Positions 27,284-53,518 of a stretch of DNA of 63,573 nucleotides are shown here, one piece after another; position 1 is the first letter of the stretch, and each line of letters begins with the position of its first letter. The notes under the pieces were generated by a model. It searched no databases. It was not told the origin of the DNA and worked only from the letters and a program-made list of their open reading frames with translations. The position numbers were made by a program, and so were the translations under genes. This DNA comes from Thermoleophilia bacterium. GTDB lineage: Bacteria; Actinomycetota; Thermoleophilia; Gaiellales; Gaiellaceae. The stretch spans positions 1 through 63,573 of the forward strand of contig SHVL01000004.1 in the NCBI GenBank assembly GCA_009694305.1. Reading direction: 5' to 3'.

Positions 27284-27820
27284 TTATCGGCGGCTTGCCT
27301 GCGAGTGAGCTGGGGAGGCGGCGTCACGGGTGTAGGCCCAGGCGTTATCTGTCATCACCCGCCGGACGCTGATCCCGTGGGCAGCGTAGAAGTCGAGTGC
27401 TCGCTCCAGAAACCGGGTCGAGGTCTCTGCCTCTGCGTCGTCGACGACTTCGGCGTAGGCGAGCCGGGAGCGGTCGTCGATCACGGCGTGCACGTGATCG
27501 AGTCCGTCGGGGGTGTGGCCCTGGGAGCGTCGGTCGCCGGTGACGCGGTGGCCGGGCTGCTTGAAACGAACGTACTCGCTCACGTCCATGTGGAGGAGAT
27601 CGCCGGGGCAGGGCCACTCGTACCGGCGGATCGGCTCCCGTCCGGGTCGCGGCGGCCGTGAGAGACCGGCCCGCTTCAAGACCTTCGAGACGGTCGAATG
27701 GGGGAAACCGGTCGCGCCCCCAACAAGCCGTGGCCCCCAGCCCGTCTCGCGTCCAACCAGCGATGCCACCAACGATGCGCCGTCGCCGGCGAAACGCTGA
27801 AAGCAGCCGCAGCCTGTCAT
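27284..27820 (-). pseudogene. IS481-family transposase remnant
   Basis: The reading contains an internal helix-turn-helix (FPHSTVSKVLKRAGL) and the start of the rve integrase core: first Asp in DLLHMDVSEYVRF, conserved HRVTGDRRS, VIDDRSRLAYAEV, and the second Asp in VMTDNAWAY. It stops about ten residues after that (YTRDAASPAHSQASRR), so the catalytic Glu and the C-terminal third are missing. The N-terminal helix-turn-helix half is also mostly missing. A full IS481 transposase has about 330 residues. No intact terminal repeats were found, so it is a dead fragment between two envelope genes. Confidence 0.8.
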
Positions 27821-27868
27821 CCCGCCTCCGCTGGCATACTGGGCACGGCCCTCGCCGTGGCCGCAACG

Positions 27869-29125
27869 ATGCGAAAGCGTCTTCTCATCATCGCCGCCGT
27901 CGTCCTGGCGCTCGCCCTCGGGCTCGTGGTCGCCGTCCTCATCGTCGCCAACCGGCCACCCTCCCCCGGAGGGCTCGAAACCGCTCCGACAGACATATCC
28001 GTCGTGGTACCGACGACGCCGACGCCCGAGCCGGTCAAGCCGGCGCCCTCGACGACTGATGTCGACCGACGGTGCTGGAAGATGTTCGGCGGCGGTCCCA
28101 CGCGGAGCCTCGCCAGGCCTGCGATCCAACTTGGCATACCGGCTCGACCGCCGATATGGGCTCGGGGGCTCAAGTCCTACGTCGAGTACCCGCCGAGCTA
28201 CTGCGACGGCGTCCTCTACGTCAATACCGGCCGCGGTGACACGTGGGCCGTCGCAGCCGACTCGGGGAAGGTCCTCTGGCGGCGGCGCAGCAACGCAAGC
28301 AAACCGTCGACCCCGGCCATCGCCGGCCCTCATCTGATCGTCAGCTCCCACGACGGATCGATCAGCGCCCTCAGCCGCCGCACCGGCAAGCTCGTGTGGC
28401 AGCTACGCACCAGGGCGAAGGTCGAGTCGTCGCCGGCCACGGTCGACGGCGTCGCTTACTTCGGGGCGACCGACGGGCGCCTCTTCGCCGTCGAGACGGC
28501 GACCGGAAAGATCCGCTGGGTCTACGACACCGGCGGGCGCATCAATTCCAGCCCCTCGCTCGCTGCGGGACGCGTGTACATCACGACGTACGCCGGGTCG
28601 ATCCTCTGCCTGCGGGCGCGAGACGGCTCGAAGCTCTGGGTCACCTACGTGAAGCGGGATGCGCTCCGGTACGAGAGCTTCTACGCGAGCGCATCGACGG
28701 ACGGTCGACGGCTCTACACGATCGCCCGCTCGGGTCTCATCGTCGCCCTCGACGCGCGGACCGGCAGGATCGAGTGGAAGCAAAGAATCAATGCGTTGGG
28801 GTACTCGACGCCTGCGATCGGCGCCGACCGGATCTTCGTCGGCGGCTTCGACGGTGCCCTGCACGCGTACCGGAAGACGGACGGGGAGGAGCTCTGGCAA
28901 GCGCGGGTCGGCGGGCGGATCCTCGGTGGGCCCGTGCTCGTGGGTGACCTCGTGTTCTTCTCGACGCTCGAGCAGAAGACGTACGCCGCCCGGGCCGACA
29001 ACGGCCGGGTCGTCTGGCGCTTTCCGATCGGGAAGTACTCGCCGGGAATCGCAACCGAGCGCGCGTACTACTTCACCCTCAATGGCATTCTCATCTCCTT
29101 TCGTGGCGTGGACGGCCCGCCATAG
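27869..29125 (+). CDS. PQQ-like beta-propeller exported protein
   Basis: A 418-residue protein. A membrane anchor (RLLIIAAVVLALALGLVVAVL) is followed by a Pro/Thr linker and then six or seven PQQ-type blades with repeats such as GRLFAVETATGKIRWVYDTG and GLIVALDARTGRIEWKQRI, plus GALHAYRKTDGEELW. No quinoprotein dehydrogenase signature is seen, so it is probably a BamB-like scaffold or ligand-binding propeller outside the membrane. ATG 27869 gives a good signal-anchor. A GTG 12 bases upstream is possible. Confidence 0.85.
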   Translation: MRKRLLIIAAVVLALALGLVVAVLIVANRPPSPGGLETAPTDISVVVPTTPTPEPVKPAPSTTDVDRRCWKMFGGGPTRSLARPAIQLGIPARPPIWARGLKSYVEYPPSYCDGVLYVNTGRGDTWAVAADSGKVLWRRRSNASKPSTPAIAGPHLIVSSHDGSISALSRRTGKLVWQLRTRAKVESSPATVDGVAYFGATDGRLFAVETATGKIRWVYDTGGRINSSPSLAAGRVYITTYAGSILCLRARDGSKLWVTYVKRDALRYESFYASASTDGRRLYTIARSGLIVALDARTGRIEWKQRINALGYSTPAIGADRIFVGGFDGALHAYRKTDGEELWQARVGGRILGGPVLVGDLVFFSTLEQKTYAARADNGRVVWRFPIGKYSPGIATERAYYFTLNGILISFRGVDGPP

Positions 29126-29153: not shown

Positions 29154-30107
29154 TCAGGCGACGCACGGGTGCCGACGGCGCCAAAGCGGCGAGCGCTGCA
29201 TTGCGTACCCCACTCCGTGCCACGCCGCAGTCTGTGCCCTGTATGCCGCGAGCCGCAGTCGCTCACCCCTCGAGGGGTCTCCGGCGAACCCTGACTCGTA
29301 CCCGAGCTTGGCGAGCAAACCGCCGGCGACAGCCTCGAACGAGGCCACGTCAGCGGGCGTCATCTCGGTGCGCCAATCACGGACGCCCGGCGTCAGACGC
29401 TGGTTCAGACGTTGCTGGTGCGGTTTGCGCGCCGAGTCGGAGCGACCGACGAAGTCGAGCATGTCCGACTGGTATTCCAGACCCGAGAAGGCGCAAACGC
29501 GCCGGAGTGCCTCCGTCGGCTCCCCGACGAGATCGTCGTACATGACCTCGAGGTAGCGGCCGACGCCGACCCTGCGACCGAGAGCACGAGCGGCACTCAC
29601 CTCGGTGCGCCAGAGCCGGGCGAAGCCGGCTGCGTCAGTTGGGTGACCCCAACCCTCGGTCATGATGCCGCGTGGCACGGAGAGGAACGAGACAGCTGCG
29701 TCACGGCCGTCGCGCACGAGATGGACAAAACGCGCATCCGGAAACGTGCGCTCGAGGAGCGGTAGGTACTGCATGTACAGCGGCGTCTTGTCACCCCACC
29801 GCGACTTGCCGCGGAGGCCTGCGTAGGCGGCGAACACAGCGCCGATAGCCTCCCCTGGCGTCATGCCAGGGCGGAGCCGCTCTTCCACCGCGTCTGCCAA
29901 GAGATTCCACTCGACGAGAGTCGGCAGGCGCCGGACGTCGGCGAGGAAGGAGACGGGGTCGACCCGCCGAGGATGACGGTGGACGAGCTGTGGAATGAAG
30001 TACGACTCGTCCGGAACAGCGAGCTCCGAATTCCGGTCGAGCATCACCCGGAGCAGCGTTGTCCCCGACCGCCGAACGCCGAGGACGAAGAGTGGCGGGC
30101 CGGTCAA
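29154..30107 (-). CDS. Sulfotransferase
   Basis: A 317-residue PAPS-dependent sulfotransferase. The 5'-phosphosulfate loop is GVRRSGTTLLR (residues 10-20) and the 3'-phosphate site is RFVHLVRDGRDAAVSFL. Substrate regions (SYFIPQLVHRHP, KTPLYMQYL) fit carbohydrate or small-molecule sulfotransferases of the Sulfotransfer_3 type. TTG 30107 overlaps the TGA of the APS kinase gene (TTGA), so donor synthesis and use are coupled. With glycan genes around it, sulfation of a surface polysaccharide or lipid is the likely role (inference). Confidence 0.88.
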   Translation of the reverse strand: MTGPPLFVLGVRRSGTTLLRVMLDRNSELAVPDESYFIPQLVHRHPRRVDPVSFLADVRRLPTLVEWNLLADAVEERLRPGMTPGEAIGAVFAAYAGLRGKSRWGDKTPLYMQYLPLLERTFPDARFVHLVRDGRDAAVSFLSVPRGIMTEGWGHPTDAAGFARLWRTEVSAARALGRRVGVGRYLEVMYDDLVGEPTEALRRVCAFSGLEYQSDMLDFVGRSDSARKPHQQRLNQRLTPGVRDWRTEMTPADVASFEAVAGGLLAKLGYESGFAGDPSRGERLRLAAYRAQTAAWHGVGYAMQRSPLWRRRHPCVA

Positions 30108-30655
30108 CGGAAGAGCCCCCTGGCGCCGAGCATCTTGATCACGCGTCCTGCGCTCGCTTCCGGCTCATCGAGTTCGGTGTCGAGCATGAGCTCTGGAGTC
30201 AACGGCTCTTCGTACGGAGCCGACACCCCGGTGAAGTCCGCCAGTTCGCCGGCGAGCGCGCGCGCGTACAGCCCTTTGGGATCGCGTCGAGCGCACTCTT
30301 CGACCGAGGCACGAACGTGCACCTCGAGGAATGGCGCGAACGCCTCGGTCAGCTCGCGGGCACGCCGCCTTGACGCCTCGTAAGGAGAAATCGCGGCCAC
30401 GACGACCGCTGTCCCGGCACGGGCCAGTCGAGACGCGACCCATCCGATTCGCTCGATGTTCGTGTCGCGGTCCTCTTTCGAGAACCCGAGGCCCTTCGAA
30501 AGATGAGTCCGGACGACGTCTCCGTCGAGCACCTCAACGTGGACTCCGCTTCGAGCGAGCTCTGCGGCGACCAAACGTGAAACGGTCGTCTTCCCGGCGC
30601 CCGAAAGACCGGTGAACCAGACCGTGTAGCCGGACGACGGCGCATCAGGGATCAC
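30104..30655 (-). CDS. cysC: Adenylylsulfate (APS) kinase
   Basis: Phosphorylates APS to PAPS, the sulfate donor. The 183-residue protein has the P-loop GLSGAGKTT at residues 16-24, the substrate segment LDGDVVRTHLSKGLGFSKEDRDTN, and the family motifs ISPYEASRRRARE and YARALAGELADFTGVSAPYE. It stands alone without ATP-sulfurylase genes here, so APS comes from elsewhere. GTG 30655 is eight bases after TATACT. It is followed by an overlapping sulfotransferase gene. Confidence 0.93.
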   Translation of the reverse strand: MIPDAPSSGYTVWFTGLSGAGKTTVSRLVAAELARSGVHVEVLDGDVVRTHLSKGLGFSKEDRDTNIERIGWVASRLARAGTAVVVAAISPYEASRRRARELTEAFAPFLEVHVRASVEECARRDPKGLYARALAGELADFTGVSAPYEEPLTPELMLDTELDEPEASAGRVIKMLGARGLFR

Positions 30656-31252: not shown

Positions 31253-31663
31253 CTACGACTCGGCGAGGCCCCAGTCGAGGACGACGCGCCAGCCGTCGGG
31301 ATCCGCGATCGTGATGCTGCGCCCGTCCCAGTAGGGGTTCTCCGGCTCGACATCGGAATAGCCGAGATCCGAAAGTCGGCCTGCAACGATCTCCGCCGCC
31401 GGTTCCGACTCGACGTAGAGCACGAGAAGGTTGTCAACGCTCGGCGCAGGGCAGGGACTTCCGTCCTCGTGCGAGGTGAACTCGAGGTGATAGTCGCTGC
31501 CGGGGAGCCCGAGCATGACGCCGTCATAGCCCGAGTGGCCCTCGAAGCGTCCGATCTCGACGAGGCCTATACCCCGGGTGTAGAACTCGACGACCTCGTC
31601 GAGGCGGTCGGTGGGTCGGGCTATCCGCACCCCGATCACCGGGAGACCTGCGGGCCAGGTCAT
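31253..31663 (-). CDS. VOC (glyoxalase/dioxygenase fold) protein
   Basis: A 136-residue member of the vicinal-oxygen-chelate superfamily with two beta-alpha-beta-beta-beta modules: VRIARPTDRLDEVVEFYTRGIGL at the start and NPYWDGRSITIADPDGWRVVL at the end. Metal-ligand positions are plausible (Glu in DYHLEFTS, Glu/His elsewhere) but not certain. It is the last gene of the flavoprotein-fumarase-ComA-exporter operon; ATG 31663 overlaps the exporter stop (ATGA). The substrate is unknown; VOC folds include lyases, epimerases and dioxygenases. Confidence 0.8.
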   Translation of the reverse strand: MTWPAGLPVIGVRIARPTDRLDEVVEFYTRGIGLVEIGRFEGHSGYDGVMLGLPGSDYHLEFTSHEDGSPCPAPSVDNLLVLYVESEPAAEIVAGRLSDLGYSDVEPENPYWDGRSITIADPDGWRVVLDWGLAES

Positions 31664-32562
31664 ACCGGCCCGGGCCCCGTAGTCGGCTCTGACCCAGGCA
31701 CGGGCCCGCGACGAGCATGCCGTTGTGTGGCGAGGCCGATCCCGACGGTGAGGGCGAGTCCGACGACCCCGACAATGAACACGTTTGCGCCCGGTGGATT
31801 GAGGAGCTTGACACCGGAGAGCGAGAGGACGAGCGCAAGCGCCACGCGCAATGCGCGGTCGGGGAGCTTGACTGTCAGCTGGCTTCCGAGCAGCACTCCG
31901 GGGATGGAGCCGATCAGCAGCCACCCCGTCGCATGAAGATCGACGCTGCCGGTGACGAAGTGACCGAAGCCGGCTACCCACAGCAGAAGTGCTGCCTGAA
32001 AGAGATCCGTTCCCACGATCTTCGCCGCGGTGAGGGGAAAGGCAATCATCATCACGAGGCCAAAGAACGTCCCGGACCCGACAGAGGTCAGCCCCACGAT
32101 GAAGCCACCGAAGACTCCGAGCACGACGGCAATACAACGATCGCGCCGCGCAAGGATGAACGGTGCGTCGCTTCCGTGGGGCCGCACGAACGCTTTGACG
32201 AAGAAGCCAATCCCACCGACCACGAGCGCGACTGCGAGAGCCTTCTGCGCCACGCTTTCGTAGCCGCCCCCGTACCTGCGCGAGAGAGCGGCCGAGAGCG
32301 CCACTCCGACGAGCGATGCCGGGATCGATCCCACGAGCATCCACATCGCGAGCCGGGCGTGAACATGCCCGAGTTGGCGGTGCCGGACGGCGCCGAACGA
32401 CTTGAAGATGGCCCCGTGCAGGATGTCCGTGCCGATCGCCACCGTCGGCTGGAAGCCGAACACGAGGATCAGCATCGGCGTCATCAGCGAGCCGCCGCCC
32501 ATGCCGGTCATCCCGACGAGTAGGCCGATCAGCAGACCGGCAAGTGACAGCTTCCAGTCCAT
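31660..32562 (-). CDS. TauE/SafE-family (TSUP) anion exporter
   Basis: A 300-residue membrane protein with eight to nine helices. Family motifs are LVGMTGMGGGSLMTPML in the first half and the matching FIVGLTSVGSGTFFGLVMM in the second. Characterised members export sulfite, sulfoacetate or other organosulfonates, and some bring in sulfur anions. Located eight bases after a ComA-like synthase that consumes sulfite, it may move sulfite or the resulting sulfonate (inference). The short C-terminal tail is hydrophilic. Confidence 0.87.
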   Translation of the reverse strand: MDWKLSLAGLLIGLLVGMTGMGGGSLMTPMLILVFGFQPTVAIGTDILHGAIFKSFGAVRHRQLGHVHARLAMWMLVGSIPASLVGVALSAALSRRYGGGYESVAQKALAVALVVGGIGFFVKAFVRPHGSDAPFILARRDRCIAVVLGVFGGFIVGLTSVGSGTFFGLVMMIAFPLTAAKIVGTDLFQAALLLWVAGFGHFVTGSVDLHATGWLLIGSIPGVLLGSQLTVKLPDRALRVALALVLSLSGVKLLNPPGANVFIVGVVGLALTVGIGLATQRHARRGPVPGSEPTTGPGPV

Positions 32563-32569
32563 AAAAGGT

Positions 32570-33358
32570 CTAGACCGATTGCTCTTGCGCCGGAAGCAGA
32601 ATCTCCTTCAACGTGTCGCCACGCAGACCAAGACGCAGGGTTTCGAGCGGAATCACCTCGTCGGGAGGAATGTTGCCGAGGTTGACGTTTGGCCCGAACT
32701 GCTTCACAAACCATGCCTGTGAGGCCTTGGTCGGCGCCTCGAAGATCAGGTCTTCGAGCGCGACGCCGTGCACGATCTCGTCGATCAGACCCGTCCGCAT
32801 GTCGCCGTCCTTGCGAAAGATGCCCGCAGTGCCACCCTCGCGTGCCTCGGTGATCACCTTCCAGGCACCCGCCTCGAGCTCCTCCTTGATCCACTCGACC
32901 CACTGATACGGGGCGTAGACGACGTCGGAGTCCTTCGATCCGACCTCGGAGAGCACCACGAAGTCGCGTGCGAAGTCGCGGATCAACTCGAGCTTCTCCT
33001 CGCGCGGGATCTCGATCGTGCCGTCCGAAATCTCGACATGCGCAAACCGGTGGTCGGTGAGCCACGCCTTGAAATCGTCGATCTTGCCCTTTGCGTAGAC
33101 GGCCTCGAAGAGCGTTCCTCCGCAGACGACGGGCGTGTCGAGGCTCCGGTAGAGCGCGATCTTCTTCTCGAGATTGTTCGTCACGTAACTCGTGCCCCAG
33201 CCGAACTTGACGATGTCCACGAAGTCGCCGGCCGTGTCGAACATCCCCTCGATGTCACGAATGTTCAGTCCCTTGTCCATCACGTGGGTCAGCCCGTTCT
33301 GCCGGGGCTTGCCCGGACGAGAGGGGACACCCAGCCAACCATCGCTAAAGTCGGGCAT
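32570..33358 (-). CDS. Phosphosulfolactate synthase-like protein (ComA family)
   Basis: A 262-residue TIM-barrel protein of the ComA family, which joins sulfite to phosphoenolpyruvate to give (2R)-phospho-3-sulfolactate, the first step of one route to coenzyme M and sulfolactate. Family motifs are RQNGLTHVMDKGL, DIVKFGWGTSYV, TPVVCGGTLFE, VEISDGTIEIPREEKLELI and the late NVNLGNIPPDEVIPLETLRLGLRGDT. Plant Hsa32 is a homologue without that known activity, so the reaction is not certain. ATG 33358 overlaps the fumarase beta gene by 14 bases. ComB, ComC and ComDE are not in the window. Confidence 0.85.
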   Translation of the reverse strand: MPDFSDGWLGVPSRPGKPRQNGLTHVMDKGLNIRDIEGMFDTAGDFVDIVKFGWGTSYVTNNLEKKIALYRSLDTPVVCGGTLFEAVYAKGKIDDFKAWLTDHRFAHVEISDGTIEIPREEKLELIRDFARDFVVLSEVGSKDSDVVYAPYQWVEWIKEELEAGAWKVITEAREGGTAGIFRKDGDMRTGLIDEIVHGVALEDLIFEAPTKASQAWFVKQFGPNVNLGNIPPDEVIPLETLRLGLRGDTLKEILLPAQEQSV

Positions 33359-33947
33359 AGAGCTCCTTCAGTTTTTCGTGGGCACGGGCCTGGACGTCGT
33401 GGTAGAGCGAGTTGCCGTGGGCGTCGATGCCGACGATCAGCGGCCCGAAGTCCCTGACGCGGAACTTCCACAGGCACTCCGGCATCAACTCTTCCCAGAG
33501 CACCTCCTCGATCTCCTCGATCTGCGTCGTCTCGAGTGCCGCAGCACCACCGACGATCGCGAAGTAGACCATCCCGAGGCGCTGCATCGGCTCGATCGCG
33601 ACATCGGGAAAGCCCCCCTTGCCGCAGATTGCCCGGACGCCGTACTGCTCGCCAAGCCCCTCGGTGAAGCGCACCATGCGGGCACTCGTCGTCGTACCGA
33701 TACAGACCTTCTCGTACGTTCCTCTGCCCTCGGCGTCGGTGGACACCTTGCGCACGCCCGGCGCGGTGTGGAGCAGAAACGCACCCGACAGATCCATCGG
33801 CGGCTCGACTCCCTGGTCGAAGATGCGGATCTGGGTGCGGTCGCGGATACCGATGATGCGGCCCTGCACCGTGACCTCGTCGCCGGCACGGAGCTTGAGG
33901 ATGTCTGCCGGATCGGTGATCGGAAAGGTGATCTCGTGATGGGCCAT
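33345..33947 (-). CDS. Class I fumarase/tartrate dehydratase, beta subunit
   Basis: A 200-residue C-terminal-type subunit of the oxygen-sensitive [4Fe-4S] hydro-lyases (FumA/TtdB family). Motifs: FPITDPADILKLRAGDEV, LLHTAPGVRK, the GTTTSARM substrate-binding loop, and AICGKGGFPDV. The partner alpha subunit is directly upstream with three bases between the genes. The expected reaction is reversible hydration of fumarate to malate, but in this operon the pair could work on a different enoic acid. ATG 33947. Confidence 0.87.
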   Translation of the reverse strand: MAHHEITFPITDPADILKLRAGDEVTVQGRIIGIRDRTQIRIFDQGVEPPMDLSGAFLLHTAPGVRKVSTDAEGRGTYEKVCIGTTTSARMVRFTEGLGEQYGVRAICGKGGFPDVAIEPMQRLGMVYFAIVGGAAALETTQIEEIEEVLWEELMPECLWKFRVRDFGPLIVGIDAHGNSLYHDVQARAHEKLKELYARL

Positions 33948-33950
33948 GGT

Positions 33951-34850
33951 CTAGAACTCCCTGTCGAAGTCGATCGTGCCGTCGGCGGCGATGTGGGCCG
34001 AGGCGCGCCTCGCCGCCCAGCACTGGTAGTTGACCGCGACCGGATTGAGGGTCATGTGGGTGTCGGCGTGCTCGATGTGGCACTGCAAGACCGTCACGTC
34101 GCCACCGAGCCCCATCGGGCCGATGCCCGTCTCGTTGAGGAGGCCGTACAACTCGTCCTCGAGTTGTGCCACGAGCGGATCGGAGTTGCGCGTGCCGACC
34201 GGCCGCGCGATCGCTTCCTTGGCCAGGTACATCGCGTAGTCGGCGGAGCCGCCGATGCCGACGCCGACGATGCCGGGAGGGCACGGCTTGCCGCCTGCGT
34301 CAACGATCGACTCGAGCACGAACTTCTTGATCCCGACGACACCGTCGGCAGGCACGCACATCTTGAGGAAGCTCATGTTCTCGGAGCCAGAGCCCTTGGG
34401 AACACACTTGACGTCGAGGCCGTCCCAGTCGGGGATGAAGTCCCAGTGGACGATGGGCAACCGGTAGCCGACATTCGGGCCGGTGTTCTCGCGCGTCAAC
34501 ACGTGCACCGCATTCGAGCGCAACGGATGCTCGACCGTCGCGCGCGCCGTCCCCGCCTTGAGAGCCGCGTAGATGCGGGTCGGGTGGAGCGGGAAATGCT
34601 CGCCCACGCGGCACGTATAGACGGCGATCCCGGTGTCCTGACAGACGAGGTTCTTCTGCTCGTCCGCGATCGAGACGTTCCGATGGATCGTCTCGAGAAT
34701 CCGGATCCCCGTCTTCGAGGTCTCGCGGTCGCGTGCATCCGCGAGTGCATCGCGGAGGTCCTGCGGGATGTCCTTCAACGCCCAGACGTAGAGGTGCGCG
34801 GCGGCATCCTCGACGGCTCCTTCGAGATCGGTGGTGGTGATCGTGCTCAT
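33951..34850 (-). CDS. Class I fumarase/tartrate dehydratase, alpha subunit
   Basis: A 299-residue N-terminal-type subunit holding the iron-sulfur cluster. Candidate cluster cysteines occur in LVCQDTGIAVY, KPCPPGIVGVGIGG and LQCHIEHADTH, the standard places in the family. NTGPNVGYRLPIVHWDF and KGSGSENMSFLKMC are further signatures. ATG 34850 overlaps the TGA of the flavoprotein gene (ATGA); a longer reading to 34904 lies within that gene. Together with the beta subunit it forms the hydro-lyase. Confidence 0.88.
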   Translation of the reverse strand: MSTITTTDLEGAVEDAAAHLYVWALKDIPQDLRDALADARDRETSKTGIRILETIHRNVSIADEQKNLVCQDTGIAVYTCRVGEHFPLHPTRIYAALKAGTARATVEHPLRSNAVHVLTRENTGPNVGYRLPIVHWDFIPDWDGLDVKCVPKGSGSENMSFLKMCVPADGVVGIKKFVLESIVDAGGKPCPPGIVGVGIGGSADYAMYLAKEAIARPVGTRNSDPLVAQLEDELYGLLNETGIGPMGLGGDVTVLQCHIEHADTHMTLNPVAVNYQCWAARRASAHIAADGTIDFDREF

Positions 34851-36055
34851 ACGCTCGCTTTCTCTGAGGCTGCCCGTCCCGCGCGACGTCCGAAGACGAC
34901 GCACTCGAGCAGCGAGTTGCCCATCATGCGGTTGCGCCCGTGGGTGCCGCCGGCGATCTCGCCGCAGGCGTACAGACCCTCGAGCGTGGTCTCGGCGTGC
35001 TCGTCGATCACGAGGCCGCCGTTTTGGTAGTGGAGGACGGGATAGGTGAGAAGTGGTTCGGTGAGCGGGTCGATGCCGGCGCCGCGGTAGCGCCGCAGCA
35101 TGTACGGCAGCGAAATGTCCGCGTCGGCCTCCGGGATCCGGGTCGTGTCGAGGTAGACCGCGGGACGGCCGTCCTCGGTCTCGACGCCGCGCCCTGCCGT
35201 CACCTCGTCGAAGATCGCCTGCGAAACGACATCCCGTAGCCCGAGCGAGTCGGTGAACTCCTCGCCGTTCGCGTTCAGGAGCACTGCGCCGTAGGCGCGC
35301 GTCGTCTCGGGGATCGAGTAGCCCTGCATCGTGACGGGCCAGGCGCCGCCGTTCGGGTGGTACTGCAGCGCGTCGAGGTCACGTGCCTCCGCGCCGAGGT
35401 CGAGTGCGATCCCGGTTACCTCTCCGGTCGCATTCGGGTGGTTCGTGGAGAGCTCCTGGCGCCGCTTTGCCTCTGCGAAGCACCGGCCGCCGGCCGCAAG
35501 GACGACGGTGCCCGCATCGATCGCTACCGGGTCGCCGTTCTTCACCTCGAAGGAGGCGCGCCACCCCGAAGCGGTTGGCTCGAGCGCGGCAAGCGCATGG
35601 TCGGGAAAGGTCAGGGCGTTGCCCCCCTCGTGGGCGTCGCGCAACGCCTTCGTGATTGCGTGGCCGGTGCGGTCACCGACCTGGAGCAGGCGCCTGCGGG
35701 AAGCTCCGCCGCAACGCGCAAGGCGGTAGCCGCCGTCTTCCCGTGTGAACGCACAGCCGAGCTCCTCCAGCCAGTGGATTGCCGATCGCGCATCCCCGGT
35801 GAGGATCTCGACGAGCCGTGGGTCGGCTGTCTCGTGCGACGAGCGCATCACGTCCGCGGCATGAAGCTCCGGCGAGTCGTCGTCGGCAAACGCCGCCTGG
35901 ATCCCACCCTGTGCCTTGGACGAGTTATTGGCCTGGATCGAGCCCTTGGTCGCCAGAGCGACATTCGCTCCCGCCCGCTCCGCCGCGACAGCGGCCGCGA
36001 GTCCCGAGGCACCACTGCCAATCACGAGCACGTCAAATCGATCCGGGGGCCGCAT
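34847..36055 (-). CDS. Flavoprotein of the fumarate reductase/L-aspartate oxidase family
   Basis: A 402-residue FAD enzyme. The dinucleotide fold VLVIGSGASGLAAAVAAERAG is at the start; SSKAQGGIQAAFADDDS gives the substrate-site loop; DALQYHPNG and the C-terminal THGRNRMMGNSLLECVVFGRRAG bind FAD. It lacks the long C-terminal helical domain of SdhA and NadB (about 530-590 residues), and no iron-sulfur or membrane subunit is adjacent, so it may act as a soluble oxidase or reductase. ATG 36055 is fixed by a TATGCT box six bases upstream. It is the first gene of the ComA operon. Confidence 0.83.
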   Translation of the reverse strand: MRPPDRFDVLVIGSGASGLAAAVAAERAGANVALATKGSIQANNSSKAQGGIQAAFADDDSPELHAADVMRSSHETADPRLVEILTGDARSAIHWLEELGCAFTREDGGYRLARCGGASRRRLLQVGDRTGHAITKALRDAHEGGNALTFPDHALAALEPTASGWRASFEVKNGDPVAIDAGTVVLAAGGRCFAEAKRRQELSTNHPNATGEVTGIALDLGAEARDLDALQYHPNGGAWPVTMQGYSIPETTRAYGAVLLNANGEEFTDSLGLRDVVSQAIFDEVTAGRGVETEDGRPAVYLDTTRIPEADADISLPYMLRRYRGAGIDPLTEPLLTYPVLHYQNGGLVIDEHAETTLEGLYACGEIAGGTHGRNRMMGNSLLECVVFGRRAGRAASEKASV

Positions 36056-36088: not shown

Positions 36089-36103
36089 ATTACAGAAACT
36101 TAT
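36089..36103 (-). promoter_or_regulatory. Putative LysR-regulator site upstream of the ComA operon
   Basis: Read on the transcribed strand it is ATAAGTTTCTGTAAT. It keeps 11 of 15 positions of the perfect palindrome at the LysR gene's own start and keeps the T-N11-A pattern. Position near -41 overlaps the -35 region, so the regulator could activate by contacting polymerase or block it. Confidence 0.5.
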
Positions 36104-36198: not shown

Positions 36199-37092
36199 TC
36201 AGGCGCTTCGTGCCCGCACGAAGGCAACGAACTCGGTGGCAGCCCGCGTTGACACCCGCCCGGATGCGCGTACGAGCGAGATCTCGCGGGTTGCGTTCAT
36301 TCCCTCGAGCCGCGCCTCCGCAAGCGTGCCTGCGGCGAGGTCGGACTCGACCGCCGTCCGCGAGATGAACGTGATGCCATACCCCGCCTGAACGGCGCTG
36401 CGAACCGATTCCTGGAGGCCCAGCTCGAGCGACGTCGCAAGCTCGAGCAGGCGAATGCCCCGCTCCCGTAGCTCGTCCTCGACGACCTGCCTCACACCGG
36501 CGCCTTCCTGCATCACGATCAACGTCTCGGCCCGGATCTCGTCGATCCCGACCGTGCGGCCGGCAAACGGGTGGTCGGGGAGGCAGATGAGAATGACCTC
36601 GTCCTCCAGAATCGGCTCGAAGCTCACCGCGCGATGACGCCGTGCGGCTCCGACGATGCCGAGCTCGAGCTCCCGGTTGGCCACGAGATCGACCACGGTC
36701 TGGGTGTCGTGCACCTCGAGCGCGACCCTGAGATCGGGATGATGCTGCTGGAACTCACAAAGCAGAAGTGGGACGGCTACGGCGGCGGGACCCGTCGAGG
36801 CTCCGATCGAGAGCTCTCCCGCCAGAGCCCCCGCACTCTCGGACGAGAGCTCGTCGAGCATCTGCTCCTCGAGCTGAAGGAGCCTTTGGGCGCTGCTGAA
36901 CAGCCGCAGCCCGGCCTCGGTCGGCTCCACGCGACGGCCCGAACGGTCGAGGAGCTGCATCCCGAGCCGCTTTTCGAGCGACCGCACCTGCAGCGACACG
37001 GCCGGCTGCGTGACGCCGAGCCGCTCTGCAGCCTGCGAGAAGCTCCGCCGCTCGACGACGGCACAGAATGCAGCAAGCTGGCGCGTGTCCAT
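36199..37092 (-). CDS. LysR-family transcriptional regulator
   Basis: A 297-residue regulator. The N-terminal winged helix-turn-helix is typical (LAAFCAVVERRSFSQAAERLG, TQPAVSLQVRSLEKRLG). The effector domain begins ELSIGASTGPAAVAVPLLL and resembles the CysL/sulfur-metabolism-associated subgroup in my reading, at low certainty. It lies 143 bases upstream of the flavoprotein-fumarase-ComA operon in the same direction, and a version of its own operator is found there. ATG 37092 is embedded in a palindrome and follows TAAGCT by six bases, so it is probably autoregulated. The effector is unknown; sulfite or a sulfonate would fit. Confidence 0.88.
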   Translation of the reverse strand: MDTRQLAAFCAVVERRSFSQAAERLGVTQPAVSLQVRSLEKRLGMQLLDRSGRRVEPTEAGLRLFSSAQRLLQLEEQMLDELSSESAGALAGELSIGASTGPAAVAVPLLLCEFQQHHPDLRVALEVHDTQTVVDLVANRELELGIVGAARRHRAVSFEPILEDEVILICLPDHPFAGRTVGIDEIRAETLIVMQEGAGVRQVVEDELRERGIRLLELATSLELGLQESVRSAVQAGYGITFISRTAVESDLAAGTLAEARLEGMNATREISLVRASGRVSTRAATEFVAFVRARSA

Positions 37093-37105
37093 AAGCGAAG
37101 CTTAT
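37091..37105. promoter_or_regulatory. Autoregulatory palindrome on the LysR gene start
   Basis: ATAAGCTTCGCTTAT is a perfect inverted repeat (6-bp arms, 3-bp centre) with the LysR T-N11-A motif. It covers both the -10 box (TAAGCT, 37099-37104) and the start codon of the LysR gene, so regulator binding would stop its own transcription. Confidence 0.65.
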
Positions 37106-43906: not shown

Positions 43907-45028
43907 TCAGTCGAAGACGCGAACATCCCGGTAGAGCGTGTCGCGCTGCACCGGGGTCTTGCCGAGCGAGCGGATCAGATATACCAGCTCGTCGGTCGAG
44001 GTTCTGTGCGAGGTACCTGCTGCCGAGACGACGTTCTCCTCCATCATCACGGAGCCCATGTCATCTGCTCCGAACGCGAGTGCGACCTGGCCGATCTTGA
44101 GTCCCTGCGTCACCCACGACGACTGGATGTGCGAGATGTTGTCGAGATAGATACGCGAGACGGCCTGGGTGAGCAGATAGTCGAACGAGGTCGGCATCTG
44201 CTCGTCACTGACGAGAGCCGAGAGGCGGTTGCCGTCACGCTGGAACGTCCACGAGATGAACGCGCGGAAGCCACCCGTCTCGTCCTGGACTTCACGCACG
44301 CGGCGCATGTGCTCGACACGCTCCTCGAGCGTCTCGACGTGCCCGTACATCATGGTCGCAGTCGTGGACATGCCGAGTTTGTGCGCGTGCCGCATCACAT
44401 CGAGCCAGTCGTCCGAGTTCGTCTTCTTCGGGGCGATGATGTCTCTGACTCGATCGACGAGAACCTCACCTCCGCCGCCCGGCAACGAGTCGAGGCCTGC
44501 GTCGCGCAGTCGGGAGAGCGTCTCCCAGACCGTCAGCTTCGACCGGCGGGAGATGTGCTGGATCTCGGGAGGCGAGAGGCAATGGAGGTGCACCGTGTAG
44601 CGGCTCTTGATCGAGCTGAACAGATCCTCGTAGAACTCGATTCCGAGGTCGGGATGGTGGCCGCCCTGCATGAGGACACCGGTACCGCCGATCGCAAGCG
44701 TCTCCTCGATCTTCCTGAAGATGACCGGCTTCGGAAGCAGATATCCCTCGCGCGTGTCCCCCGGACTGCGGTAGAAGGCGCAGAAATCGCAGTCGGTGAC
44801 ACAGATGTTCGTGTAGTTGATGTTCCGGTCGATGATGAAGGTGACCCTGCTCGGGTCGGTCTTGCGGTTGCGCAACGCGTTCGCGACCCGACCGACGGCC
44901 ACGAGATCGCGGGAGCGTAGGAGCGTGGCCGCGTCCTCGTCCGTGATGCGCTCACCGTCGAGCGCACGCTCGAGGATCTCTGCGGTGGGGGGCTTCAGCC
45001 TGTCTCCCGGGTGGTGCGTCAGGCTCAC
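43907..45028 (-). CDS. mqnC: Cyclic dehypoxanthinyl futalosine synthase (radical SAM)
   Basis: Radical-SAM enzyme of the futalosine menaquinone pathway that cyclises dehypoxanthine futalosine. The 373-residue protein has the cluster motif in NYTNICVTDCDFCAFYR (CxxxCxxC), then LMQGGHHPDLGIEFYEDL, LDSLPGGGGEVLVDRV and MMYGHVET. The 'DRNINYTN' context separates it from MqnE. GTG 45028 overlaps the mqnA stop (GTGA). It is the last gene of the ubiX-menG-hepT-mqnE-mqnA-mqnC run. Confidence 0.95.
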   Translation of the reverse strand: MSLTHHPGDRLKPPTAEILERALDGERITDEDAATLLRSRDLVAVGRVANALRNRKTDPSRVTFIIDRNINYTNICVTDCDFCAFYRSPGDTREGYLLPKPVIFRKIEETLAIGGTGVLMQGGHHPDLGIEFYEDLFSSIKSRYTVHLHCLSPPEIQHISRRSKLTVWETLSRLRDAGLDSLPGGGGEVLVDRVRDIIAPKKTNSDDWLDVMRHAHKLGMSTTATMMYGHVETLEERVEHMRRVREVQDETGGFRAFISWTFQRDGNRLSALVSDEQMPTSFDYLLTQAVSRIYLDNISHIQSSWVTQGLKIGQVALAFGADDMGSVMMEENVVSAAGTSHRTSTDELVYLIRSLGKTPVQRDTLYRDVRVFD

Positions 45029-45789
45029 AGCGAGACCTCGGCGTCGCGGGAGAAGCGAAGCTCGGGGATGCGGTGGATCTCACCGACGTCGCGTGCCATC
45101 TCGAGGAACGTGTAGTACCCGGCCCGCTCGCGAGGGCCAAAGCTGTAGCGGAGCTTCTCGAAGTAGCGGGCAAGGAAGCCCGCGGGGTAGCCGTACCGCT
45201 CGCTCGCCTCGTAGGCGAGCTTCTCTGGCTCCGACCGGGCGAGGCGCACCGACGCGACGAGTGCGTGCTCGAGGTCGGAGAGCCCCTCGACGACCGGCTC
45301 GGAAGCGGCCCAGACGGCAAACACCATGGGCAGGCCGGTCTTCTCGAGCCACAGCCGCCCGAGATCGTAGTGCGGTGTGGGATCCTCGAAGGCGCTCCGC
45401 AAGGCCGCGTCGCCGATCAGGAGCGTCGCATCGGCCTCATCCTCGAACGGACGGATCTCGGCACCCGGGAGCAGGATCTTCGTCAGCACGACAGACGTGG
45501 CGCTCTCGGGCGTGACGGCGACGGAGCGCACGCGTCCGAGCGGCATGCGCGTCACGAGCTGGATCGAGTCCACGGCACCCTCCGAGGAGACACACAGGCG
45601 GGGCAGGAGCCGTAGCGTTTCGGCATTGCGCGCGTACTCGATCGACGAGATCGGGGCGACGTCGAGGTTCCCCTCGATCAGCATCCGATTGAGCTCTGTT
45701 GGAACGCCGACAATCTGCTCCACCTCGTACTCGAGGCCGTGGAAGACCGGCGCCATGTTGACGTAGCTGATCCGGCCGAGTCGGATCAC
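45025..45789 (-). CDS. mqnA: Chorismate dehydratase
   Basis: Converts chorismate to 3-enolpyruvylbenzoate, the first step of the futalosine pathway. The 254-residue periplasmic-binding-protein-like fold begins IRLGRISYVNMAPVFHGLE, with DVAPISSIEYARN, SSEGAVDSIQLVTRMPL, ATLLIGDAALR and DLGRLWLEKTGLPMVFAVWA. GTG 45789 overlaps the mqnE stop (GTGA) and the mqnC start overlaps its own stop, so the three are translationally coupled. Confidence 0.95.
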   Translation of the reverse strand: MIRLGRISYVNMAPVFHGLEYEVEQIVGVPTELNRMLIEGNLDVAPISSIEYARNAETLRLLPRLCVSSEGAVDSIQLVTRMPLGRVRSVAVTPESATSVVLTKILLPGAEIRPFEDEADATLLIGDAALRSAFEDPTPHYDLGRLWLEKTGLPMVFAVWAASEPVVEGLSDLEHALVASVRLARSEPEKLAYEASERYGYPAGFLARYFEKLRYSFGPRERAGYYTFLEMARDVGEIHRIPELRFSRDAEVSL

Positions 45790-46901
45790 GCCGCGTCCCA
45801 GACCTGAATCGTGTTGTGGAGCGAGTCACGCTGCACCGGAATCCGGCCGGCCTCGCGCACGAAGCGAACGAGCTGATCGATCTTCTGCTCCGTCTCCGTC
45901 TGCGCGCCCGCTGCATGGAAGATCGTCTCGCGCATGACCGTTCCCTGCACGTCGTTGGCTCCGAAATGCAGGCCGACGGCCGAGAGCGGCATCCCCATCA
46001 TGATCCAGTACGCCTTGATGTTCGGGATGTTGTCGAGCATCAACCGTGAGACGGCCATCATCTTGAGATCCTCGGAGCCGGTCGAGTGACGGAAGCCACG
46101 GCGCTCGAACACGGTGTTCTCCGGGTGGAAGGCGAGCGGGATGAAGGCCACGAAGCCGCCCGTCCGATCCTGCTGCTCACGCAGGCGAATCAGGTGGTCG
46201 ATGCGCTCCTCGTAGGTCTCGACGTGACCGTAGAGCATCGTGCAGGTCGAGCGCAGGCCCATCCGGTGCGCGGTGTCGTGCACGTGGAACCAGATGTCTG
46301 CGTGCTCCTTTCCCGGAGCGACGAGCGCCCTGACGCGATCGGCGAAGATCTCCGCCCCGCCGCCGGGAAGCGAGTCGAGCCCGGCCGCCTTGAGCTCGAC
46401 GAGAACCTCCTCGTGCGTGAGACCGGAGAGAGTCGTCATGTGGTGCACCTCCGAGGCCGTGTAGCACTTGAGATGCACGTCGGGCAGCTCGGCCTTGAGC
46501 GCCCTGAGCGTGTCGAGGTAGAAGTCGAGATCGATGTGCGGGTTCTCGCCGTTGACCATGTGGATCTCGGTGAACGAGGCGAGGCGATGCTGGGCGACCG
46601 CATCGCGCACGAGCTCCTCGGTCGTCGTCGAATATGCGTGCTCCTGCTTCTGGGTCGCCGCAAAGGCACAGAACTTGCATTTCACCCGACAGACGTTCGT
46701 CTGACTGAGGTAGAGGTTCTGAACGAACGACACCTCGTCGTTGCCGCCGCGCAGGCGGCGTGCGAGGTCGGCAAGTTCACCGATCTCGAGAAGATCGTCG
46801 GATTCGAGGATCGTGAGACCGTCCTCGAGGTCGAGGCGTTCGCCCGCCTCGACCTTGTCGCGAACGGGGCCGAGCGTTGAGGTGCGGTCGAGGAGTGCCA
46901 T
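45786..46901 (-). CDS. mqnE: Aminofutalosine synthase (radical SAM)
   Basis: Radical-SAM enzyme joining 3-enolpyruvylbenzoate and the adenosyl part of SAM to form aminofutalosine. The 371-residue protein has CRVKCKFCAFA (CxxxCxxC) preceded by LYLSQTNV, then MVNGENPHIDLDFYLDTL, LKCYTASEVHHM, LDSLPGGGAEIFADRV and TMLYGHVETYEER. ATG 46901 lies nine bases after the polyprenyl synthase stop. MqnB and MqnD, needed to complete the pathway, are not in this window. Confidence 0.95.
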   Translation of the reverse strand: MALLDRTSTLGPVRDKVEAGERLDLEDGLTILESDDLLEIGELADLARRLRGGNDEVSFVQNLYLSQTNVCRVKCKFCAFAATQKQEHAYSTTTEELVRDAVAQHRLASFTEIHMVNGENPHIDLDFYLDTLRALKAELPDVHLKCYTASEVHHMTTLSGLTHEEVLVELKAAGLDSLPGGGAEIFADRVRALVAPGKEHADIWFHVHDTAHRMGLRSTCTMLYGHVETYEERIDHLIRLREQQDRTGGFVAFIPLAFHPENTVFERRGFRHSTGSEDLKMMAVSRLMLDNIPNIKAYWIMMGMPLSAVGLHFGANDVQGTVMRETIFHAAGAQTETEQKIDQLVRFVREAGRIPVQRDSLHNTIQVWDAA

Positions 46902-46910
46902 TTCTGCTGC

Positions 46911-47816
46911 CTATCTGTTGCGGTCTACGACGGCGTCTGCCAGGGCCTCGAGCTCCCGGCGGCGGGACTCGCCGGAGAGGCTCTCTCGTGCCCTTATAGC
47001 GTAGTCGAGGGCAACCGCCCGCGAGCGCTCGAGGGCGCCGGTTGCCGCCACGCGAACGAGAACGCCTTCGAGGGGGCCGCCGGCAATCGCCGCACGCACG
47101 GTCTCGTCGGACTGCGCGGCGAGGAGCAGCGGCAAGGTGGGCGTGCCGTCACGCAGGTCGGTGCCGGGGATCTTGCCCGTCTCGTTCGAGTCGCCCGCAC
47201 AGTCGAGAATGTCGTCAACGATCTGAAACGAAATACCGAGCAATCGTCCGTAGTCGCCGCTCCCGCCACCGAGCAGGCAGGCAGCCTCGAAGAGCTTCCC
47301 GGTCTTGAGAGAGCATCGCTCGAGATAACCGTCCACCGTCGTGTCGGGATCATACCGCTGCCGCCGCTGCAGAGCCTCGCCTCGTGCGAGCGCGAGCGAC
47401 GCTTCTGCGAGGGCCGAGACACCGGCGAGGTCGCCGTCTGCAGCGAGCTCCGAGAAGGCGCGTGCGAAGAGGTAGTCGCCGGTTGCACGGGCGGCTTCCG
47501 CGCCGAAGGCCGACCATGCCGCTGCCTTGCCGCGGCGCACGCTGGCCCCGTCGATCAGGTCGTCGTGCACGAGAGTCGCCATGTGTACGAGCTCGACGGC
47601 CGCGCCCGCTACGACCGACGGCGCCCTATCGGCCGGAGCCGAGAGGAACGTGAGCATCGGTCGAAGCCGCTTTCCACCGGCCGTCAGTGCCTCGGTACCG
47701 ATCTCGGCGACGAGGCCGGGGTGCCCTGCCACGGAGCGGTCGAGCAGCTCCTCGACATCGGCCAGGTAGTCGGCGAGCCCCGGAGCGGCCCGCACCGTCT
47801 CGAGGGTCGCACTCAG
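46911..47816 (-). CDS. Polyprenyl (heptaprenyl-type) diphosphate synthase
   Basis: Builds the isoprenoid side chain of menaquinone. The 301-residue all-helical protein has GGKRLRPMLTFL, the first aspartate-rich motif LVHDDLIDGASVRRG and the second FQIVDDILDCAGDSNETGK. The best start is CTG 47816, which overlaps the menG stop as CTGA and gives the opening SATLETVRAAPGLADYL; GTG 47795 is the conventional alternative (294 residues). Chain length cannot be read with certainty. Confidence 0.88.
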   Translation of the reverse strand: MSATLETVRAAPGLADYLADVEELLDRSVAGHPGLVAEIGTEALTAGGKRLRPMLTFLSAPADRAPSVVAGAAVELVHMATLVHDDLIDGASVRRGKAAAWSAFGAEAARATGDYLFARAFSELAADGDLAGVSALAEASLALARGEALQRRQRYDPDTTVDGYLERCSLKTGKLFEAACLLGGGSGDYGRLLGISFQIVDDILDCAGDSNETGKIPGTDLRDGTPTLPLLLAAQSDETVRAAIAGGPLEGVLVRVAATGALERSRAVALDYAIRARESLSGESRRRELEALADAVVDRNR

Positions 47817-48496
47817 CGTGCCGTCGCCGTGTGAAGGGCGACGATCGAGCCGCCGAAGAGCCTGAAGGTCGCCCCGCCGAACCCTGTCTCGTCGATCAAC
47901 GCCGCGAGATCCTCGGCTCCGGGAAAGCGCCGCACGCTGGCCGGAAGGTACGTGTACGCCTCGCCGCCGGGCAGGACCCGCCCGAGCAGCGGCACGATGC
48001 GATCGAACCAGAGGGAAAAGAACGGTTTCAGGGGACCGCGCGGCTGCGTGATCTCGAGAATCGCGAGCTGTCCTCCCGGGCGCAGAACACGACGCAACTC
48101 GAGCAGGCCGGCGCGGAGGTCGTCCACGTTGCGCACGCCGAACCCGACGGTGACGACGTCGAAGCTGCCGTCATCGAAAGGGAGCGCCAACATGTCGCCC
48201 TGGGCCCATTCGATCGAGTCGGACTTGGATCGGGCGCGGGCGAGCATCGGGCCGGAGAAGTCGAGGCCCGTCACGATGCCACCTTCGCGCTCGCAGGCCA
48301 GGGCAAGGTCGCCGGTCCCGCAGCAGGCGTCGAGAACACGTGAACCGGGCCGTACGACCGCACGGGCGGTGACCTGACGCCACCGCTGGTCGAGCCCCAT
48401 CGTCATGACACGGTTCATCACGTCGTACACGGGCGCTATCCGGTCGAACATGCTGCGCACGCCATCGGGCTGTAGCGTCCCGCTCTCGTGCGTCAT
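47813..48496 (-). CDS. menG: Demethylmenaquinone methyltransferase
   Basis: SAM-dependent C-methyltransferase for the last step of menaquinone synthesis. The 227-residue protein has MFDRIAPVYDVMNRVMTMGLDQRWR, the SAM motif VLDACCGTGDLAL, GLDFSGPMLARAR, DGSFDVVTVGFGVRNVDD and LRVLRPGGQLAILE-like sequence, all UbiE/MenG signatures. ATG 48496 overlaps the ubiX stop (ATGA). Since the pathway here is the futalosine one, menaquinone is the expected product, not ubiquinone. Confidence 0.95.
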   Translation of the reverse strand: MTHESGTLQPDGVRSMFDRIAPVYDVMNRVMTMGLDQRWRQVTARAVVRPGSRVLDACCGTGDLALACEREGGIVTGLDFSGPMLARARSKSDSIEWAQGDMLALPFDDGSFDVVTVGFGVRNVDDLRAGLLELRRVLRPGGQLAILEITQPRGPLKPFFSLWFDRIVPLLGRVLPGGEAYTYLPASVRRFPGAEDLAALIDETGFGGATFRLFGGSIVALHTATAR

Positions 48497-49083
48497 GCCT
48501 GGCCCCAGCGCGGCATCAGCGTGTTGTCGAGGCCGATCTGGTCGAGTGCGCGTGCAACAACGAAGTCCACGAGGTCGTCGATCGTCTTTGCTCCGTGGTA
48601 GAAGCCGGGGGCGGCGAGCAGGATCACCGCTCCTGCCTCGTGCAGGGTCGCGAGGCCGCGCAGATGAATCGACGAGAGCGGCGTCTCACGGGGAACGAGA
48701 ACGAGCTTGCGTCGCTCCTTGAGTGCGACCGAGGCGGCACGGTGGATGAGATTCGCCATCGCACCCGAAGCGAGCGTGCCCACGGTGCTCATCGAGCAGG
48801 GGCAGACGACGTACGCGTCAACCTTCGCGGAGCCGCTTGCATAGGGGCTCTTGTAGTCGCTGATCCCGTAGACCGTGACCTGGTCGGCGGCATCACCGAC
48901 GAATCGCTCGAGCACCTCGGCAGGCGGCAGGGTGGCGTCACCGTACAGCTCGGTCGCGATCACCTCGATGCCGGCGGCCGAGGCAACGAGGCCTATCTCA
49001 CAGTCGGCCTGCGCGAGCGACTGCAGCAGCCGGGCAGCATAGGGAGCGCCCGAGGCACCGGTGACTCCAAGAAAGACTCGCAT
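48493..49083 (-). CDS. ubiX: Flavin prenyltransferase UbiX
   Basis: Makes prenylated FMN, the cofactor of UbiD decarboxylases. The 196-residue protein begins RVFLGVTGASGAPYAARLL and has VVCPCSMSTVGTLASGAMANLIHRAASVALKERRKLVLVPRETPLS (in pieces: CPCSMSTVGT, NLIHRA, PRETPLS) and AAPGFYHG, all typical. Its UbiD partner is upstream beyond the bc complex genes. ATG 49083 is seven bases after TAGCAT; this promoter heads the menaquinone operon. Confidence 0.95.
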   Translation of the reverse strand: MRVFLGVTGASGAPYAARLLQSLAQADCEIGLVASAAGIEVIATELYGDATLPPAEVLERFVGDAADQVTVYGISDYKSPYASGSAKVDAYVVCPCSMSTVGTLASGAMANLIHRAASVALKERRKLVLVPRETPLSSIHLRGLATLHEAGAVILLAAPGFYHGAKTIDDLVDFVVARALDQIGLDNTLMPRWGQA

Positions 49084-49090
49084 CGATGAG

Positions 49091-49096
49091 ATGCTA
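49091..49096 (-). promoter_or_regulatory. -10 box TAGCAT of the ubiX-mqn operon
   Basis: Seven bases before ATG 49083. It lies in the 54-base gap after qcrC, so the menaquinone genes can be transcribed independently of the bc complex. Confidence 0.55.
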
Positions 49097-49137
49097 GACG
49101 CCAGACCCCGACCCGGGAGACTGACCGGACGGCCCTG

Positions 49138-49959: not shown

Positions 49960-49961
49960 GG

Positions 49962-50744: not shown

Positions 50745-50746
50745 GA

Positions 50747-51670: not shown

Positions 51671-51717
51671 TCTTCAACTTCCAGTCGGATACTTCGACTG
51701 TAGCGCGTGCATGGCTG

Positions 51718-53232: not shown

Positions 53233-53240
53233 CGAGAGAC

Positions 53241-53246
53241 AGTCTA
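53241..53246 (-). promoter_or_regulatory. -10 box TAGACT of ubiD
   Basis: Eight bases before ATG 53232. Confidence 0.5.
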
Positions 53247-53327
53247 GAGGCGAGGGGAGGGGCCACGGGGAACCGGGGGTTCCCGGCTTCAGGAGCCACG
53301 CGAAGCGTGCCGGAACAGAGGCGCTGG

Positions 53328-53361
53328 AAAGCCGGCGGTACGCTCTTCCACCGCTGGCTTT
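53328..53361 (-). terminator. Hairpin overlapping the end of the 52-residue gene
   Basis: AAAGCCGGCGGT (53328-53339) and ACCGCTGGCTTT (53350-53361) form 12-bp arms with one mismatch around a 10-base loop. It overlaps the TAA stop of the small gene. A second, shorter GGGAACC...GGTTCCC inverted repeat lies near 53270-53287. The 127 bases between this gene and ubiD hold no other gene. Confidence 0.5.
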
Positions 53362-53518
53362 ACAGCGCTCGCGACTTGCGTTTTGCCGAAAGGTAGTGCG
53401 TCAGCTCGCCGAGTGCGATCACGGCGATGAAGATGAGCCCGACGACGAACATCGCGAGAACCACGTTGCGGCCTTCCTCGGCGGCGTCGGCCAGAAACAG
53501 AAACGAACCTATTGGCAT
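53360..53518 (-). CDS. Small single-helix membrane protein, 52 residues
   Basis: MPIGSFLFLADAAEEGRNVV begins it; one strong hydrophobic helix (about residues 20-38, FVVGLIFIAVIAL) is followed by a basic tail (YLSAKRKSRAL). Codon use is strongly GC at third positions. ATG 53518 lies seven bases after TAAAGT, so it has its own promoter. It is flanked by heme genes upstream and ubiD downstream. A role as a small respiratory-complex or heme-delivery accessory protein is possible but not shown. Confidence 0.65.
   Translation of the reverse strand: MPIGSFLFLADAAEEGRNVVLAMFVVGLIFIAVIALGELTHYLSAKRKSRAL

Follow-up and report, generated by a model that had tools for sequence, protein, structure and literature searches.

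A ComA-led operon of Thermoleophilia as a candidate route for fixing sulfite into a C3 sulfonate

Sulfonates represent a large organic sulfur pool in soil and water, and the few biosynthetic routes known for them serve mostly coenzyme M (CoM). The ComA homologue YitD of Bacillus is associated with sulfolactate in spores, and we know of no fumarase-type or flavoprotein partners for it. In the CoM route of Xanthobacter autotrophicus, the enzymes that follow on from ComA belong to the fumarase/aspartase-type lyase superfamily, being class II homologues of argininosuccinate and adenylosuccinate lyases. That route (XcbB1, XcbC1, XcbD1, XcbE1) starts with ComA (PMC11507031), as would the one proposed here for a minus-strand gene cluster of a Thermoleophilia bacterium, found in a stretch of 63,573 nucleotides (GenBank assembly GCA_009694305.1, contig SHVL01000004.1, positions 1 to 63,573; hereafter the window). 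Relative to the Xcb route, the window has an iron-sulfur class I pair and a flavoprotein, and is tied to sulfate assimilation, not to alkene metabolism; no Lyase_1 protein of the XcbC/XcbD type occurs among the cluster genes, the Lyase_1 genes of the same genome lying on other contigs. We think it rather probable that this cluster is a dedicated sulfite-fixing operon making a C3 sulfonate. The gene set would be a new form of ComA-initiated sulfonate synthesis, and no earlier description of it was found in the literature searched, most subscription papers being outside that search. The features concerned, in window coordinates, are as follows.

37091..37105, no strand: LysR-type box ATAAGCTTCGCTTAT, a perfect palindrome spanning the lysR start
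36199..37092, minus: LysR-type regulator (Pfam HTH_1/LysR_substrate), 143 nt upstream of the flavoprotein gene on the same strand
36089..36103, minus: LysR-type box ATAAGTTTCTGTAAT, upstream of the flavoprotein start
34847..36055, minus: short FrdA/NadB-type flavoprotein of a ComA-linked subfamily, 402 aa (FAD_binding_2, E 1e-64)
33951..34850, minus: class I fumarase-type hydro-lyase alpha (4Fe-4S), ComA-linked clade (PF05681, E 1e-89)
33345..33947, minus: class I fumarase-type hydro-lyase beta, ComA-linked clade (PF05683, E 1e-24)
32570..33358, minus: ComA-family phosphosulfolactate synthase (PF02679, E 4e-88)
31660..32562, minus: TSUP (TauE/SafE) transporter (PF01925, E 4e-40), a putative sulfate/sulfite permease or sulfonate exporter
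31253..31663, minus: YycE-like VOC protein, co-located, not conserved
30104..30655, minus: CysC adenylylsulfate kinase, member of a comA-cysH-cysC-cysDN run in relatives
29154..30107, minus: sulfotransferase using 3'-phosphoadenylyl sulfate (PAPS), adjoining cysC; several relatives likewise have one close to the cluster

All six open reading frames between 31253 and 36055 were confirmed, with junctions from flavoprotein to VOC protein of -4, +3, -14, +7 and -4 nt; coordinates, junctions and Pfam families thus bear out an earlier, sequence-only reading of six tightly packed minus-strand genes, to which lysR (36199-37092) belongs as part of the same unit. By its sequence the window's ComA is a genuine member of the ComA family, matching PF02679 over positions 2-243 of 243 (295 bits; gathering threshold 25.2). 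The core polar residues common to ComA of M. jannaschii and YitD of B. subtilis are invariant in 55 of 55 Thermoleophilia relatives (D20, K43, W46, E79, E103, E133, K137, E168, R170, E205, K209, N224, R240 and R244), so that the comparison with Methanocaldococcus ComA suggested in the sequence-only reading upholds the identity given there. The closest solved relative is the Bacillus homologue (YitD, 1U83), and at 241.8 bits the archaeal equivalog model TIGR03849 (cut-off 280) is not reached, so this is not the archaeal equivalog. Elsewhere, Bacteroidota (MAGs labelled Algoriphagus and Spirosoma; loci L100-L105; MAG, metagenome-assembled genome) have a ComA that shares 53% identity with that of the window, no flavoprotein or fumarase partners having been detected nearby, and two Thermoleophilia genomes (G144 and G193) have second, divergent ComA copies outside the cluster (e.g. 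L055, 29% identity).

Of the 199 genomes available for the class, 101 carry ComA; families of the class are numbered f1 (the window's own) to f12, with G000 denoting the window's genome and L numbers denoting loci; the closest named matches are MAGs of Thermoleophilia and Actinomycetota, with ComA identity of up to 92%. A flavoprotein subfamily of about 400 aa was found in 73 genomes, every one of which (73/73) also carries ComA, and wherever the two lie on one contig (68/68) they are at most 2.5 kb apart, as direct neighbours in 37 genomes and separated in 30 by a space that fumAB would fill; in the remaining five they fall on different contigs. The sole other match, in G175, reaches 41% and belongs to a frame of 505 aa, and a search of the phylum with the flavoprotein gave scores of at least 600 bits in this class only, followed by 376 and then about 308 bits outside it, the 376-bit outlier (G449) being 40% identical to the window protein and having no ComA within its 4.2-kb locus. 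Gene order varies by family around this core. The f1 order is lysR, variable genes, flavoprotein, fumA, fumB, comA and usually then cysH, cysC, cysD, cysN and TSUP; f3 has the same order with no lysR seen; f2 has comA-flavoprotein without fumarase; f5 has lysR-flavoprotein-comA, with an ATP sulfurylase domain next in at least L057 (Miltoncostaea oceani); f6 has TSUP-fumA-fumB-comA without flavoprotein, lysR lying near the cluster and several loci also having a histidine phosphatase; and in f10 ComA is present without flavoprotein or fumarase-type partners. A TSUP gene stays close to the cluster in most loci of f1, in several of f6 and in one of f3. The order is conserved within the class, and a finding named in the sequence-only reading as counting against a shared pathway, fumarase and flavoprotein kept without ComA, was not made, the flavoprotein subfamily never occurring without it and the class I pair being present in all tested ComA-positive f1 genomes except G117 and in none of four ComA-negative ones.

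That pair retains the three cluster cysteines and the catalytic Asp and His (CQDTG, GKPCPP, QCWA and a conserved His). In class I fumarases the motifs ARDxAH, GPTTSARM, GALLA and CHxASxP line the substrate pocket; in the window's pair the motifs of true fumarases are replaced (ARDxAH by IRDxTQ, GPTTSARM by GTTTSARM, ALLA by ALETT, xCHxASxP by xTHxTxNP), and the replacements are at least 95% invariant within the ComA-linked clade. In a small tree the linked copies stand apart from those of M. jannaschii and Leishmania and from stand-alone copies (support 0.99, with few outgroups). The plainest alternative, also raised in the sequence-only reading, is that of a tricarboxylic acid (TCA) cycle-type pair in which a fumarase and a succinate/fumarate-type flavoprotein happen to sit beside a ComA homologue of other function, like Hsa32. 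Its merits are that both proteins have the fold and catalytic residues of the fumarase and fumarate reductase (FRD) families and that alpha passes the NCBIfam fumarate hydratase equivalog PRK06246 (302.5 vs 276 bits). G000, however, encodes a class II fumarase (FumC, seen as a fragment where contig G000:C9 ends) and a succinate dehydrogenase flavoprotein (sdhA, G000:C81) elsewhere, and on that ground the class I pair is not taken for a TCA pair. Moreover, pair and flavoprotein track ComA, the pocket motifs are changed, and f6 genomes keep a second, stand-alone class I fumarase that is only about 37% identical to the window alpha, compared with 57-59% for the linked copies of the same genomes. 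We therefore hold this alternative to be very unlikely.

The flavoprotein tells a similar story. Equivalents of FrdA H232, E245, R248, R287, H355 and R390 are kept and the histidine for covalent FAD is absent; T244 has become Pro in all members examined, four residues are inserted beside H232, and HYTMGG has become HYxNGG. Scores fall short of the NCBIfam cut-offs for nadB (263 vs 452.75) and sdhA_frdA_Gneg (235 vs 567). The protein had been called truncated; it lacks the C-terminal domain PF02910, but so does the whole subfamily of about 400 aa, and it is thus an intact form, not a broken gene. An AlphaFold2 model (pLDDT 88) can be superposed along its full length on soluble fumarate reductases and on L-aspartate oxidase (Z 40-42), as expected from sequence. 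The pattern fits redox chemistry of the FRD/NadB type on a substrate whose distal acid group differs, a fit that does not pinpoint the substrate itself. One might instead suppose that the flavoprotein resembles AprA and, as a reductase of PAPS or its unphosphorylated form, supplies the sulfite that ComA uses, since the alpha subunit of the PAPS reductase of M. thermolithotrophicus belongs to the same superfamily (E 8e-8; PMC10322725) and, in f5, flavoprotein-comA is succeeded by an ATP sulfurylase domain. Against this, the FrdA/NadB catalytic residues are all kept and the FrdA/NadB matches are far stronger (E 1e-43 to 1e-47), cysH is already present, and neither the cluster in the window nor the annotated neighbourhood of related clusters contains a ferredoxin-like beta subunit. 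The residues and the missing beta subunit led us to reject this idea, which we regard as most improbable.

In G000, cysH, cysD and cysN lie together on another contig (C49) and cysC is in the window, and PF01077, the sulfite/nitrite reductase domain, has no match in that genome, even among first-look candidates. The same domain is missing from 27 of 36 ComA-positive genomes in f1, 4 of 5 in f2 and all 12 in f6, as against 4 of 33 in f5 and none of 12 in f10. Most of these genomes are incomplete MAGs, so that single absences are weak while the family-wide pattern is stronger. Among tested genomes without PF01077, PF01507 (CysH/CysD) was found in 14 of 15 ComA-positive and 0 of 4 ComA-negative ones (Fisher P 0.0013, uncorrected for relatedness). 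ComA is thus genetically tied to a supply of sulfite, which favours sulfite as its substrate and disfavours a role like that of Hsa32. CysK-like genes occur in every genome tested, and in those with no detectable sulfite reductase the sulfide for cysteine must therefore come from elsewhere. It is possible, if on the doubtful side, that in many Thermoleophilia ComA replaces sulfite reductase, and that sulfate assimilation there finishes not with sulfide but with a sulfonate counterpart of the reductive TCA branch (sulfolactate, sulfoacrylate, 3-sulfopropanoate), run by dedicated paralogues and under its own LysR.

The favoured sulfite-fixing operon can be sketched from family chemistry, on which the substrates, step order and end product depend; gene content, linkage, residue conservation, the locus-specific box described below and the lack of a detectable sulfite reductase are read directly from the DNA. 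CysDN, CysC and CysH would activate sulfate and reduce it to sulfite (cysHDN being on another contig in G000 and in the same run in relatives), and ComA would add sulfite to phosphoenolpyruvate (PEP) to give (R)-phosphosulfolactate. A phosphatase, perhaps the ComB-family gene at G000:C73 or another, would then yield sulfolactate, the sulfonate analogue of malate, which the FumAB-type hydro-lyase would reversibly dehydrate to sulfoacrylate, the analogue of fumarate. Hydride transfer by the flavoprotein would most likely convert sulfoacrylate to 3-sulfopropanoate, the analogue of succinate, where the hydro-lyase is present, and sulfolactate to sulfopyruvate where it is not. TSUP would bring in sulfate or sulfite, or take the product out. 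A pathway that makes a sulfonate had been proposed in the sequence-only reading and is partly supported: its central idea withstood the tests made, with corrections, through the ComA family, the conserved order and the kept catalytic residues with changed pocket motifs, while export, a part for the VOC protein and any specific product lack such support.

The same enzymes could in principle run in reverse. Conversion of 3-sulfopropionate through sulfoacrylate to sulfolactate in Roseovarius catabolism is cited as a thesis result in PMC11489063, and this sole quoted precedent for the chemistry is catabolic. In such a direction the flavoprotein would oxidise 3-sulfopropanoate to sulfoacrylate, the hydro-lyase would form sulfolactate, ComA in reverse would free sulfite and TSUP would export it; TSUP proteins do include sulfite exporters, and a LysR with its own box suits induction by a substrate. 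Yet the same run carries cysH, cysC and cysDN, for sulfate activation and sulfite production, neither a dedicated uptake system nor a sulfolactate kinase was seen, and genomes without sulfite reductase would merely gain more sulfite. A catabolic direction is, on this evidence, rather unlikely. As for transport, CysZ is a TSUP family member, and the window's TSUP may by analogy be a sulfate permease like it or an exporter, the two being equally possible. In C. glutamicum, CysZ is a likely sulfate permease (PMC1266029), and in E. gilvus TauE has been proposed to export 3-sulfopropionate (PMC11489063). A route ending in export, as first suggested, consequently lacks support, since a TSUP protein found where cysHCDN genes end could just as well import sulfate in the manner of CysZ (PMC1266029).

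Whether the product could be CoM or another C2 sulfonate deserves consideration, as known PEP-dependent CoM routes begin with ComA (PMC12068725, PMC11507031). With the archaeal pathway (ComA, ComB, ComC, ComDE) the window's genome has ComA in common; a gene of the ComB family (PF04029, G000:C73), a family also seen in ComA-negative genomes, lies unlinked to the cluster. The cluster itself has no linked ComB and no good ComC, and adds a hydro-lyase and a flavoprotein. The earlier statement that ComB, ComC and ComDE are absent holds for the cluster, that ComB-family gene lying elsewhere in the genome. ComC (PF02615) gave weak partial matches only, in a genome search that did not extend to ComDE, and no genes of the argininosuccinate/adenylosuccinate-lyase type are linked to the cluster, as they are in the bacterial route; nor were any for the metabolism of alkenes or methane noticed in its vicinity. 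A variant CoM route is in our view extremely doubtful.

Regulation is probably dedicated too. An exact search of four whole genomes for the box pattern ATAA[GC]-N6-T[TA]AT found it within the 2.5-Mb G000 exactly twice, at 36089-36103 and at the palindrome 37091-37105, only at the two corresponding places in G150, and, in both M. oceani (G122) and G007, only between lysR and flavoprotein. In G000 the box is missing from the cysHDN locus. In 18 of 24 f1/f3 loci it lies at most 90 bp upstream of the flavoprotein, against 0.005 expected per upstream stretch; as the loci are related, the P value overstates the case. As the box is limited to this locus genome-wide, regulation would be local, and LysR is probably an autoregulating regulator of this operon; its binding to the predicted box is inferred from position and palindromic form. 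Its targets would be confined to itself and the operon, with sulfite or a sulfonate as the probable signal.

Several observations temper the proposed pathway. Hydro-lyase and flavoprotein are separable (flavoprotein only in f2 and f5, hydro-lyase only in f6) and therefore need not act in series, and one f1 genus has no flavoprotein; that the two do not always occur together speaks against assuming one invariable linear sequence of steps. The phosphatase family PF04029 occurs in ComA-negative genomes as well and was not found in three f5 genomes tested. Beta scores below the fumarase cut-off PRK06043 (147.6 vs 269) while alpha lies above one, and the pocket-motif positions were assigned by alignment to homologues, not from a substrate-bound structure. 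Finally, no product-specific gene, whether for export, decarboxylation or transamination, is conserved across the clusters.

Neighbouring genes were also considered as clues to the product, and the candidates from f1 (in some, Fe-ADH and TOMM SagD), f2 (an ACT protein and a DAO-like one, both weak matches), f5 (a 660-aa protein without Pfam match) and f6 (histidine phosphatase, MBOAT) do not converge. In L032 (1044-2924), L044, L047 and L078 the flavoprotein gene is immediately preceded by one for a TOMM cyclodehydratase of the SagD/YcaO type, and some f1 loci (L074:3359-4378, L048, L076) have a short gene resembling iron-containing alcohol dehydrogenases between lysR and flavoprotein, below all specific family cut-offs. 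Downstream of the six-gene run come DUF4395 on the plus strand and then cysC and the sulfotransferase. The VOC protein had been listed as a pathway member; at this position it was seen, apart from the window, in just one congener, represented by L033 and L071, which are probably a single record, for which reason it is not core and is probably peripheral, and both it and DUF4395 were rejected as core genes. Farther off, two radical SAM proteins (CofH/MqnC-type C-terminal regions) and a UbiD protein at 43907-53400 probably form a futalosine-type menaquinone cluster, and the C-terminal part of a reading frame at 27284-28351 (minus) resembles an integrase-core transposase remnant, with no Pfam match at 1e-8.

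If the operon does make a C3 sulfonate straight from sulfate, a widespread, little-cultured class of soil and freshwater would count among the sources of such compounds, sulfite would gain a new sink, and the enzymes of the malate-fumarate-succinate steps would have been reworked for sulfonate analogues. Part of the claim is testable because the cultured M. oceani carries the lysR-flavoprotein-ComA core. Two known systems set the proposal in relief. Salmonella YeiE is an autoregulating LysR-type protein that binds sulfite and controls itself and the adjacent yeiH (PMC12880088); it offers a functional precedent for the window's LysR, not a shown orthologue (159 vs 480 bits against the YeiE model, far under its cut-off), and where YeiE/YeiH resists sulfite by transport, the window operon would fix it instead. 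The fpr2-cysIXHDNYZ cluster of C. glutamicum, another actinobacterium, also contains cysHDN and closes with the gene of a membrane permease, CysZ (PMC1266029), and whereas C. glutamicum sends its sulfite to the sulfite reductase CysI, here ComA would occupy the place of that enzyme.

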